42,029 nucleotides of DNA from Treponema sp. (GTDB lineage: Bacteria; Spirochaetota; Spirochaetia; Treponematales; Breznakiellaceae), in the NCBI GenBank assembly GCA_031288495.1, contig JAITRH010000183.1, positions 1-42,029 of the forward strand, read 5' to 3'. The notes under the pieces are model-generated. The model had not been told where the DNA came from, did no database searches, and saw nothing but the letters and a program-made list of their open reading frames with translations. A program made the position numbers and the translations under genes. Of this stretch, positions 24,680 to 31,310 are shown one piece after another. Each line of letters starts with the position of its first letter. Within the stretch, counting starts at the first letter, position 1.

Positions 24680-26080
24680 TTATCGCTTGAGGGTCAAGAG
24701 TTCTTGCAAGAGCTGATCCGCGGTCTGAATGGTCCGGGAATTGGCCTGAAAACCCCGTTGGGTAACGATCATGTCGGTGAACTGTTCGGCCATATCCACG
24801 TTGGACATTTCCAAGACGCCGGAGACGATCTTCCCCTTGCCCGCGATTCCCGAAGGTCCAATGTTGGCCGCCCCGGAGTTGGTAGAAACCACATAGACGT
24901 TTTCCCCGGCTTTTTCGAGCCCTCCCTGATTGGTGAAACTAGCCAGGGCAATCTGGCCGATGGTCCGGTTTGAGCCGTTGGAATAGACCCCGGTAATGAT
25001 CCCGCTGGAATCGATCTTGAAGTTATCCAGGTAGCCCATGGAATACCCGTCCTGCATCACCGCTTTGGAGGAACTCTGTTCCGCATACTGGGTAATGGAA
25101 TTGACAAAGCCTCCCACGGTACCCAGGTTCAGGGCAAATGCTTGCCGCACCTGGGCCCCATCCGCATCAGGATCCGTGTTCTGCACATCATAGGCCACAT
25201 TCATGATCACGTTTCCTGCTCCGCCGGATTCATTCCCTGCCCCGTCTACGGTGCTGAGGAGGGTCCCGTTGTTAGAGAAATTTACCGTAAAGGCCGCCCC
25301 TTCCCCTGCTGCCGGCGCATCTTCTCCAAGGCCGATAGCGGTATTGGTAGCTACCTCGGCATTGGGATCCACCACCACTGCGGCGTTCCAGCTATTGGCC
25401 GTACCCGGCACCCGGGTAAACTCCACCTGCAGGGTATGCTCCTCTCCAAAGGTATCGTAAATCTTGATAGCCGTATTCCAGGTTCCCCGCTGAATATCCA
25501 AGGCAGTAGGGTTTTCGGGAATGACCGGGATCCGCTTATCCAGGTTACAGGCGAAGTTAACCATGGTGGTAGCCCGGGCCGGATCCTTGGATCCCACCGG
25601 GATTATCAGGTCTTCCACATCCCGGGAAACATCCAGGGTCTGTACCCCTTGTACGTCCTGAGCCATCCAGCCCTGTACCTTCATCCCGGTAGCAGGATTC
25701 ACCAGGGTTCCTGCCTGATCCACCGTAAAGGCCCCTGCCCGGGTATAATAGGAATTAGCTCCCTCTTTCAGCACAAAAAAACCCGTCCCATTAAGCGCCA
25801 AATCGGTCCCTACCCCCGTAGATTGAAAGGCCCCTTGGGTATGGACCGTATCAATGGAAGCGATGGACATACCAAGGCCCACTTCTTTAGGGTTTACCCC
25901 CCCTAAATCCTCGGTAGGCCGGGAAGCGCCCTGAAGCTGCTGAGAGAGGAGGTCCTGAAAATTAACCCGCCCCTTTTTGAAACCCACCGTATTGATGTTG
26001 GCAATGTTATTACCAATTACATCCATTCGAGTCTGGTGATTCTGCAGGCCTGATACGCCGGCAAACAATGATCGCATCAT
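24680..26080 (-). CDS. flgE: FlgE, flagellar hook protein
   Basis: Subunit of the periplasmic hook, the universal joint between rod and filament. The 466-residue protein has the N-terminal rod/hook motif ([20 protein letters not shown], then [18 protein letters not shown]) and the C-terminal coiled motif ending [35 protein letters not shown] central D1/D2 domain region lies between. It contains a single cysteine, C178, thirteen residues after K165; these are exactly the positions of the pair that forms the lysinoalanine crosslink in Treponema denticola FlgE. Two in-frame ATGs (26080 and 26077) follow a GGGAG site ten bases away. Exported by the flagellar type III system, so no signal peptide is expected. 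Confidence 0.97.
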
Positions 26081-26112: not shown

Positions 26113-26667
26113 CTATTCCTCAAGTACCTTGGTAACCTGGTTCCAGGAATAATAGGAACCCTGTACCAACACTTCAGGGTTATTCCCCCGGGTTACGGCC
26201 TTAACCGTACCCTGGATAAGCTTATCTCCCACGGCTATTTCCACGGATTTCCCCAGAGCGCCGGTAGCTTCACTGCCCGCAACCAGAGCCGCAAGCCGGG
26301 AAAAGTCCGTGGCCATACTGGTCATCTGATCCAAGGTGGAAAACTGGGCCATCTGGGCGATAAATTCCTTATCTTCCATCGGAGCCGTGGGGTCTTGATA
26401 GGAAAGCTGGGTAATCAGGAGCTTAAGAAAATCATCTTTCCCCAGATTCTGCTGAGGATTCTTCCCCTCGTGTATCTTACTGTTGTATTCTTTCACCCAT
26501 TGGGCAAGCTCTGCCTGCTCTTGGGGACTCAGGGTGGATTTAAGAAAATCATCTTTCCCCAGATTCTGCTGAGGATTCTTCCCCTCGTGTATCTTACTAT
26601 TGTGTTCTTTCACCCATTGGGCAAGCCTTGTCCGCTCTTGTGCATTCAGGGTACCTTGAACTTCCAT
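26113..26667 (-). CDS. flgD: FlgD, hook cap protein, with internal N-terminal duplication
   Basis: Scaffold that caps the growing hook and promotes FlgE assembly. The 184-residue product has the FlgD core DDFLKLLITQLSYQDPTAPMEDKEFIAQMAQFS (about 78-110) and a C-terminal beta domain. Residues 7-45 and 46-84 are a tandem duplication of 39 residues with 31 identities, so the DDFLK motif appears twice. The ATG at 26667 is chosen over upstream starts because of the AGGAGG site seven bases before it; this leaves 16 bp after the fliK stop. The duplicated unit is conserved in treponemes as a single copy at the FlgD N-terminus, as far as I know the family; the doubling looks specific to this lineage. 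Confidence 0.93.
   Translation of the reverse strand: MEVQGTLNAQERTRLAQWVKEHNSKIHEGKNPQQNLGKDDFLKSTLSPQEQAELAQWVKEYNSKIHEGKNPQQNLGKDDFLKLLITQLSYQDPTAPMEDKEFIAQMAQFSTLDQMTSMATDFSRLAALVAGSEATGALGKSVEIAVGDKLIQGTVKAVTRGNNPEVLVQGSYYSWNQVTKVLEE
26423..26656. repeat. 117-bp tandem duplication within flgD
   Basis: Copy one is 26423-26539 and copy two 26540-26656, each 117 bp (39 codons), so the frame is kept. The first 59 bases of the two copies are identical (they begin TTAAGAAAATCATC), and the rest differ at scattered sites. The identity at synonymous sites suggests a recent duplication or ongoing conversion. Confidence 0.95.
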
Positions 26668-26683
26668 ATAGTGCCTCCTTCCT

Positions 26684-28165
26684 TTATGCCAGCATATCGA
26701 TCGGGATATGGCCCGATGAACCGCCACTCCCGGCTGCCCTGAAGCCTAATTCCCCTTCCCCGTTCCTTTCCGAGGCTGCGTCATAGATAGACAGGGCAAA
26801 ACGTTCGGAAAAGAAGGGCCCTGCTTCTGGGTCTCTCTGGTGGGGATTTTCTCCATTCCCATCGCTTCCTGAGGCTAAGGACATATCCAGGCTGGTTTCT
26901 CCAAAACCCGAATCCTTAAAGGCCTGTTCCAGGGAATGTATTTCCCGCTCAAATGCCCGAAGCGCTTCATTACTTTCTACGATAATATGCCCTGTTATCT
27001 TCTTTTCGGCCAGTTCAAGTTGTATCTTTACATTTCCCAGTGTTTCCGGTCTGAGGGCAAGCCGTATGGTCCCTTCTCCCCCGTCCCGCAACAGCACCTG
27101 GGCCTGCCGGACAATAGCTCCGTTGAGATTCTGGGAAAGCTCCCGGGCAAGGAGATCCTCAAAATTACGGGTGAGGGGGGTCTCCCGGGGATTCTGCAGG
27201 GCTTCCCGGTCTTGGGTATCGGTGTGGAGATTCACCGTGAGTTCTAGGGTCTTGGTTTCTCCCCCTGATTTTGGATCTCCAGGACCCGGCGAAGGCCCTA
27301 CCCCTTCCTGGGAAGGGAAATCCCGAAGGTCCATCCGATCCCGGCGTTTATCCCGGACCTTGGCATCGGAATCCCTCTTGAGGCCCTTCCTTACCGGTTC
27401 TTTACCGGCCTCCATCCCCTGGGGAGGATTCGGGGAAAACCCCGCAGGATCGCCGGTTCCGGGGGACCGGCTTGGCCGAAAGAACCCTGCTTTGGGAGAA
27501 CCCGCTTTTTCAGCGTCCCTGCTATCCTGGATATTCCGATCATTCCCCTTGGGTTGGGAGATAGTCCCCTGGGAACCGGCTTCCTGAACCGAGGCTTGGG
27601 TCTGCACCGGGGGATTTCCGGCTGTCCGGGAAGCGGAAGCCGCGGCAAGGGGCTCCTGGATCTTCTCATAACGGGGGGAAGGGGAACGGTCTTTCTTTTG
27701 AAGCCCTCCCTGGGGGCTTTTTTCATCAGGACCCGGCCCTCCCTGAACAGCCGGGAACGCAAAAGTCCCGCCGGGATCCCGGCTCTCCCCGCCGCTTTGG
27801 CTCAGGTCTTGTACCGCTTCTCCGGAACGAGGCTTCCCCGGCGCCTGAAGGTCTCCGGCAACCGGGGAAGCCTTTCTTTGCGGATTTTTTTGAGCGGCTT
27901 TCCCCTTACCGGTATCACCCCTTCGGGCTGCTTCCGCACCGCGGCCTTCCCCCGGAACACTCCCCTTGGGGCCGGTTCCGGCGGGATTATTTTTGACGAG
28001 CCCTTCCAGAAGCCGGGCAAAAAAATCGAGCTTATCCTGTTTACGGGACTTTCCCTGGCCCTGCTTAGCCCTAAGGCCCTGGGGTGAGCCTCCCCCCGTA
28101 TCTATCCCGCCCATTCCCTCCCGGGAACCATCTGAACTGTGCGTCAGGGGAGATACCTCTATCAT
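26684..28165 (-). CDS. fliK: FliK-like hook-length control protein
   Basis: Secreted ruler protein that measures hook length and triggers the FlhB specificity switch. The 493-residue protein has a very long low-complexity N-terminal part (about residues 10-330, rich in G, P, K, R, S, Q). A folded C-terminal domain of the Flg_hook type follows (about 335-430, with GGEGTIRLALRPETLGNVKIQLELAEKKITGHIIVE). The low-complexity region is expected for a ruler and evolves rapidly. The ATG at 28165 is preferred to the GTG at 28168 because the AGGAGG site has better spacing. The gene is in the conserved order flbB-fliK-flgD-flgE; in treponemes it has also been called tap1. Confidence 0.9.
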   Translation of the reverse strand: MIEVSPLTHSSDGSREGMGGIDTGGGSPQGLRAKQGQGKSRKQDKLDFFARLLEGLVKNNPAGTGPKGSVPGEGRGAEAARRGDTGKGKAAQKNPQRKASPVAGDLQAPGKPRSGEAVQDLSQSGGESRDPGGTFAFPAVQGGPGPDEKSPQGGLQKKDRSPSPRYEKIQEPLAAASASRTAGNPPVQTQASVQEAGSQGTISQPKGNDRNIQDSRDAEKAGSPKAGFFRPSRSPGTGDPAGFSPNPPQGMEAGKEPVRKGLKRDSDAKVRDKRRDRMDLRDFPSQEGVGPSPGPGDPKSGGETKTLELTVNLHTDTQDREALQNPRETPLTRNFEDLLARELSQNLNGAIVRQAQVLLRDGGEGTIRLALRPETLGNVKIQLELAEKKITGHIIVESNEALRAFEREIHSLEQAFKDSGFGETSLDMSLASGSDGNGENPHQRDPEAGPFFSERFALSIYDAASERNGEGELGFRAAGSGGSSGHIPIDMLA

Positions 28166-28235
28166 CACCCAGCCTCCTTATACTATGCCCGCCGCTTACC
28201 CAACTTCGACCGTGTTTGTAGGGTTACCGGAAACT

Positions 28236-29925: not shown

Positions 29926-30063
29926 GAAGGGTCTCAGGGGCCCCGCAAGGATTCCCGGGATCGACAGGGTACGCAAGGGGAAACCCAAAGGTCCGCCGCT
30001 TACGCCGATGAGCCGGATTTTTCATGCCGCAATGACCGGGCGGTATGGCCCTACCCCCTTGGG

Positions 30064-30294
30064 CCTTGGCCTGAGCGCCTTACGCCCTGGCCTGAATCCC
30101 TTACGCCTTGGCCTGAGCACCTTACGCCTTGGCCTGAGCCACTTACGCCTTGGCCTGAGCCACTTACGCCTTGGCCTAAACTCCTTACGCCTTGGCCTAA
30201 GCTCCTTACGCCTTGGCCTGAGCCGCTCACGCCTTGGCCTGAATCCCTTACGCCTTGGCCTGAGCGCCTTACGCCTTGGCTTGAGCGGCTCTCG
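30064..30294. repeat. 21-bp minisatellite, about 11 units
   Basis: Eleven tandem units of exactly 21 bp, ten well conserved and the last one degenerate. Each begins CCTTGGCCTGAG (with small changes such as CCTAAA) and ends in CTTACG, and most variation is at unit positions 12-15. Because the unit is a multiple of three, open frames run through it on both strands, for example a basic P-R-R-K frame on the minus strand and a T-P-W-P-E frame on the plus strand. None has a convincing ribosome-binding site, so it is called as a repeat, not a gene. The whole stretch 29828-30566 otherwise shows no gene. Confidence 0.93.
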
Positions 30295-30566: not shown

Positions 30567-31310
30567 ATGGGAACAATCCAAGAAACCGTAACGCCGCCTC
30601 TGGGAGAGGGCCTCACCTTTGAGAAAGTCTGGGCCGCCCTTATGGAGTTGCGGGAATCTCAAAAGGAGTCTCACCAGGAAATCGACCGTATCCTCAGGGA
30701 AACCGCGGAACAGATGCAAGAAACCGACCGGCAGATACAAGGTATGGGAGCGGAAACTGACCGGCGCTTGCAGGAAACCGCCGAACAGATACAAGAAACC
30801 GCCGAACAGATGAAAGAAACCGCGAAACAGATGCAAGAGACCGACCGGCGGATGAAAGAAACCGATAAACGGGTCGGGGAGATTACCCACCGCTTTGGCG
30901 ATATGGTTGAACACATGGTCGTCCCGAACCTGGTGGCGAAGTTTCGGGAACTGGGTTTTACCTTTATCAAGGCAGGTCCCAATGTGAAAGTCGCCGACCG
31001 GGAACACCATATCTTCACGGAAGTTGACGCTTTTCTGGAAAATGGCGATAAGGTGATGATCGTCGAAATCAAGACCAAGCCCACGACTGATGATATAAAG
31101 GATCACCGAGAGCGGATGAAGAAGCTGCGGGTCTTTGCGGATTTACACGATGACAAGCGGAAATACCTGGGCGCGGTTGCGGGGGTGGTATTTGACGAGA
31201 GCGTAAAGAACTATGCCCTGCAAAACGGCTTTTATGTGCTTGAACCCTCGGGAGAAACCTTCATCATCACCGAACCCAGGGCAAAAGGCTATGCTCCTCG
31301 GGAATGGTAA
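30567..31310 (+). CDS. Coiled-coil PD-(D/E)XK nuclease-like protein (DUF3782 type)
   Basis: A 247-residue protein with an N-terminal helical segment, then about nine heptad-like repeats (residues 45-105, with the repeating pattern ETAEQMQ or ETDRRMK) forming a long coiled coil, and a C-terminal domain (about 118-240) with a PD-(D/E)XK nuclease pattern: D154 in FTEVDAFL, and E167 and K169 in MIVEIKTK. This is the architecture of DUF3782-type proteins, which are often multicopy in treponemes and cyanobacteria; their biological role is not established. An AAGGAG site lies seven bases upstream of the ATG. The heptads are encoded by imperfect 21-bp DNA repeats. Flanking near-direct repeats suggest a mobile or duplicated cassette. 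No partner nuclease, methylase or transposase gene is next to it. Confidence 0.8.
   Translation: MGTIQETVTPPLGEGLTFEKVWAALMELRESQKESHQEIDRILRETAEQMQETDRQIQGMGAETDRRLQETAEQIQETAEQMKETAKQMQETDRRMKETDKRVGEITHRFGDMVEHMVVPNLVAKFRELGFTFIKAGPNVKVADREHHIFTEVDAFLENGDKVMIVEIKTKPTTDDIKDHRERMKKLRVFADLHDDKRKYLGAVAGVVFDESVKNYALQNGFYVLEPSGETFIITEPRAKGYAPREW

Follow-up and report, generated by a model that had tools for sequence, protein, structure and literature searches.

A natural in-frame tandem duplication in the export leader of the hook-cap protein FlgD of a Treponema species

The stretch of DNA analyzed here, hereafter the window, comprises the 42,029 nucleotides of contig JAITRH010000183.1 from the Treponema sp. 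assembly GCA_031288495.1 (a fragmented draft of 252 contigs, 83% complete, in which the window is contig 154). Its closest named relatives are Treponema and Spirochaetaceae metagenome bins, of a kind that we take to come from termite guts. The gene of interest, flgD, encodes the hook-cap (hook assembly) protein and occupies positions 26113–26667 of the minus strand (184 codons and a stop), the strand to which all gene and motif coordinates below refer unless stated otherwise. In family profile searches the product scores approximately 80 bits against PF03963 (cut-off 27) and 157.8 bits against the FlgD equivalog NF007197 (cut-off 129), and a sequence search matches it to a solved FlgD of 232 residues at an E value of 1.5e-6. 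The reading frame begins at the ATG at 26667, with an AGGAGG ribosome-binding site close upstream (26674–26679), and is uninterrupted. It sits among flagellar genes, between fliK upstream (26684–28168; PF02120, 55.6 bits against a cut-off of 29.8) and the hook protein gene flgE downstream (24680–26080; NF004241, 593.5 bits against a cut-off of 469), and the frames of the neighboring fliK, flgE, and motB are all open, each scoring above its family cut-off.

An earlier note on this DNA had described an in-frame tandem duplication of 117 bp in flgD, and the duplication is confirmed as real. TRF finds 2.0 copies of a 117 bp unit at 26423–26652 with a score of 397; the two 117 bp blocks are identical at 105 of 117 positions, the initial 59 bases without interruption, and residues 7–45 and 46–84 of the protein agree at 31 of 39 places. 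The repeat proper consists of codons 6–43 (copy 1, 26539–26652, the faster-changing copy) and codons 45–82 (copy 2, 26422–26535), identical at 104 of 114 bases and separated by codon 44 (S), with a period of 117 bp that preserves the frame. When the residues of this leader were shuffled, a tandem as good appeared in 0 of 300 shuffles. Codons 1–5 (MEVQG, 26653–26667) are single and, by analogy with residues 2–5 of Salmonella FlgD, would be the place of the N-terminal hydrophobic export signal (PMC8983047). An internal start yielding a single-copy FlgD was considered and rejected: over roughly the first 93 codons, the in-frame ATG, GTG, and TTG besides the start are limited to the GTG codons 19 and 58, neither of which is preceded by a clear ribosome site at the normal spacing.

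What the duplication does to the protein depends on the position of the gate recognition motif (GRM), which has the general form F-x-x-x-hydrophobic. The sole complete GRM is FLKLL (F80–L84, 26416–26430), of which F80, K82, and L84, all in copy 2, are invariant across 62 aligned FlgD rows (the window and 61 of 78 usable loci). Residues 78–142 align with residues 34–101 of the solved FlgD, whose residues 36–40 fall on FLKLL provided that the match is indeed ungapped at its start. Copy 1 closes with a truncated GRM, FLKST (F41–T45, 26533–26547), in which the last position is non-hydrophobic; the comparison is with Salmonella FlgD, where the hydrophobic signal lies at residues 2–5 and the GRM, FLTLL, at residues 36–40 (PMC8983047). 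Since copy 1 stops inside the GRM, the protein keeps a single start (MEVQG), a single complete motif, and a single core, and the added length lies entirely between start and motif, such that the interval from the initial Met to the F of the GRM is 79 residues in the window FlgD vs. 40 in the 10 other genus members. The suggestion that the export-signal region has been doubled is right as to the in-frame tandem located there, but MEVQG and the complete GRM both remain single.

The AlphaFold model of the window FlgD (62 rows) has low confidence in the leader and block-mean pLDDT above 90 at residues 131–180. It contains a leader helix in each copy (residues 9–27 and 48–65), a GRM helix (77–89), a broken stalk helix (100–108 and 112–136), and then one beta domain of five strands, the stalk helix and this small, putatively tudor-like domain forming the single-copy core of the protein (26116–26415). 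The model of a single-copy relative (L032) has one leader helix (9–29), the GRM helix (38–50), the stalk (61–97), and strands. Modeling of the lengthened protein predicts an additional leader helix, one per copy, but a single GRM helix, stalk, and beta domain, with the leader itself at low confidence. A Foldseek search with the window model gave a T. cruzi MscS as its best match (E 0.023), followed by tudor and Sm-like folds, with nothing at E ≤ 0.001 and no FlgD entry among the best 50 matches listed. According to the available text on the Salmonella hook-cap crystal, FlgD could not be modelled over its first 55 to 65 residues (PMC8595650), so the extra 39 residues would fall within a segment disordered in the cap. 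A doubling of cap contacts, as had been proposed, is not borne out, because the repeated unit is the part ahead of the GRM, unmodelled in that crystal, and both the stalk helix and the C-terminal domain are single. The leader is nonetheless not inert, given that among ten-residue deletions of Salmonella FlgD variant 1 is unsecreted, swimming is poor in variants 2 and 3, and motility is lost in variant 4 (PMC8595650).

To place the duplication among its relatives, FlgD was searched for and matched in 49 of 58 genomes and in 163 of the 195 genomes of the family, the present genome being included in both counts; the leaders compared below come from a part of these. All 10 other genus genomes examined, one per species, have a single FlgD leader, so two copies are the derived state here. 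On a broader level, a survey of 147 loci (144 rows, with L128, L131, and L133 excluded for an R at the third place of the motif) yielded 100 distinct leaders, that of the window among them, of which 78 are 39–42 residues long and the window's is the longest. The surveyed loci are not independent, as many genomes are present in two collections, and they comprise best matches plus 20 chosen mainly because their frames were long or their matches began early, so that long leaders are over-represented if anything; three leaders of 24–28 residues (four loci) are wrong start choices whose frames extend further upstream.

Internal tandems were assessed in 14 leaders with 300 shuffles each, and in three of them (the window, L113, and L097) no shuffle was as good. 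The L113 leader, from another genus of the same family and identical in L041 (genome G153), carries a 22-residue tandem with 12 of 22 residues identical, and that of L097, a Treponema bin, a 14-residue tandem with 7 of 14 identical. The tandem of L126, which belongs to the genus of L113 and has a leader of equal length, is not significant (48 of 300 shuffles); L136 and L146 are borderline, with 10 and 11 of 300, and the rest of the 14 are not significant. The tandems of L113 and L097 beside that of the window mean that leader duplication arose more than once among the relatives examined, with different units, and the complete FLK(I/L)L motif is doubled in none of the three. Literature searches on FlgD duplication, structure, and export, which covered few subscription journals, turned up no description of such a duplication occurring naturally in an FlgD leader.

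In a 15-row tree of the 38-codon unit, the two window copies are sisters with support of 92/92, just under the mark for strong support; the branch to copy 1 has a length of 0.078 and that to copy 2 a length of 0.021, and most other forks are weak. Taken together with the single leaders of all 10 relatives, this pairing indicates that the duplication arose on the lineage of the window. It also bears on the possibility that copy 2 is an assembly artefact or strain mosaic, namely a misjoin of two strain variants, for which the fragmented and incomplete draft and the 59 identical bases common to both copies could be cited. This we regard as very unlikely, since 10 of 114 positions distinguish the copies, the reading frame is unbroken, and the copies, besides pairing in the tree, share KIHEGK, a state absent from the 10 genus relatives, which have K/R-I/L-N-Q/E-GK.

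The age of the duplication can be gauged from substitution rates, all drawn from few sites: dN is 0.080 and dS 0.151 between copy 1 and copy 2, and dN is 0.022 and dS 0.188 between the flgD core and that of the nearest species. On these values the duplication seems to date from around the divergence of the nearest sampled species, or from somewhat later. The description of the event as recent therefore holds only when time is measured by the species of one genus, and the duplication is not very fresh: dS between the copies is ~0.15, and dS to the nearest species over the remainder of the gene is 0.19 (again from few sites).

As to how the duplication began, no long microhomology template at the breakpoints was found in relatives. 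Between the leader start and the GRM region, the longest common stretches are 4–6 bases (13 genes listed), and in register, i.e., 117 bp apart, nine of the 10 genus relatives have a longest run of 2–3 bases and the tenth, L006, one of 5 (TTAAA); the ancestor may have held a five-base template. General repeat-proneness was also rejected as the cause. In sampled contigs, which were taken by number and are not a random sample, this genome has 42 tandem arrays over 362 kb (window excluded), G001 has 9 over 163 kb, and G008 has 28 over 255 kb; this genome is repeat-rich, but G008 is likewise, and both G001 and G008 have a single leader.

Other repeats were also noticed in this genome. The window holds 11 copies of a 21 bp unit at 30055–30286, apparently intergenic, and arrays of period 21, and also 23–24, with differing units recur among the 40 stretches of this genome that were sampled. 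On the plus strand of the window, a 247-codon open frame at 30567–31310 has heptad repeats (21 bp units at 30769–30864) followed by an end that gives the impression of a nuclease. Another contig contains a large tandem repeat of period 225/255 (L167:102-854) inside an open frame of 392 codons.

The differences between the flgD copies are unevenly spread, nine of the ten falling within the first 54 bases and a single one within the final 60 (Fisher p 0.006), whereas pairs of genus members differ evenly across the same two parts (means of 8.8 and 9.4 over 45 pairs). Plain drift does not predict this pattern, which needs conversion or local acceleration; on the sequence evidence, conversion may have homogenized the back halves or, alternatively, change at the front of copy 1 may have accelerated. 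A foreign donor for the front of copy 1 was looked for and rejected, as no genus member examined is close (8–18 differences in 54 bases). At the front of the copies dN is 0.185 and dS 0.201, and a ratio near 1 is the pattern expected for lost constraint. Between genus members, by comparison, dN/dS is 0.135 in leaders (mean dN 0.113 and dS 0.832, 44 of 45 pairs usable) and 0.118 in the core, so that purifying selection acts on the two alike. The upstream copy of the leader is drifting.

The near identity of the back halves is what conversion between copies would leave, and a perfect repeat of 59 bases could recombine, which raises the possibility of a contingency locus at which long-repeat recombination switches flgD between one, two, and more copies. 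We find this highly improbable: no sign of a varying copy number was seen in the genomes compared, none of the FlgD leaders examined has three or more copies, and any number of copies would be in frame, so the gene would not be switched off. The accumulation of amino-acid changes in copy 1 might alternatively point to an inactivated or decaying flgD, the duplication being harmful and the lineage in the course of losing its flagella. We give this almost no credence, as the core is conserved relative to the nearest species (of 101 codons, 11 carry synonymous and 5 carry amino-acid changes), the ribosome site is good, and the neighboring flagellar genes are intact by the measures given above.

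The explanation we favor, and hold to be likely, is that a single in-frame tandem duplication on the lineage of this species doubled the FlgD export leader and has been tolerated as a nearly neutral change in length. By analogy with Salmonella, FlgD would dock at FlhB through the GRM of copy 2, the longer and slack tether would still reach the export gate, and the cap would be assembled normally, its disordered front end being longer. Several observations count against so simple a reading, namely the conservation of leader length and sequence in relatives, the impaired motility or secretion of the Salmonella leader deletions, the low confidence of the model in the leader, and the uneven differences between the copies, which sit poorly with plain drift. 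The conservation of leader length, along with the many amino-acid changes between the copy fronts and the recurrence of longer leaders among relatives (two of them clear duplications), could instead speak for an adaptive doubled leader, in which the longer tether alters the efficiency or timing of FlgD docking and export, or contributes an extra helix at the hook tip, and so tunes hook assembly in the periplasmic flagella. We consider this unlikely, because the front dN/dS of about 1 is that of lost constraint, the allele is seen in one genome only, and in the available text on Salmonella FlgD spacing far beyond the minimum leaves export unimpeded (PMC8983047). An altered cap or export rate is possible but unsupported.

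The tolerated duplication that we favor has several known likenesses. The nearest Treponema-type FlgD proteins (~145 residues) have the same core, GRM, and beta domain, with 80–90% identity within the genus from about residue 42 to 184, and differ in having one leader of 40 residues before the GRM instead of 79. In Salmonella, the motility defect of an FlgD lacking residues 2–5 is suppressed by duplications and by insertions located between residue 15 and the GRM (PMC8983047). They place extra sequence in the same interval between signal and GRM as in the window FlgD, but were selected in the laboratory in a deletion mutant and amount to at least 6 residues, whereas the window allele is natural, adds 39 residues, and occurs in an otherwise normal protein. 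Deletion mutants of Salmonella FliE have likewise reverted through tandem duplications of a spacer in a flagellar export substrate (PMC8546590), although there the protein is a different one and a lost length (30 bp) was restored, while the window FlgD exceeds the usual length.

The duplication is probably an ordinary kind of protein change and no new kind of system. In Salmonella FlgD, a separation of 19 residues between the signal and the GRM is needed for detectable export and one of 30 for substantial export (PMC8983047), and a wild FlgD with about twice the usual interval and a single GRM is consistent with this minimum-spacing rule. The allele thus constitutes a natural test of the upper limit on the length of the tether and of the cost of carrying a second, broken motif.
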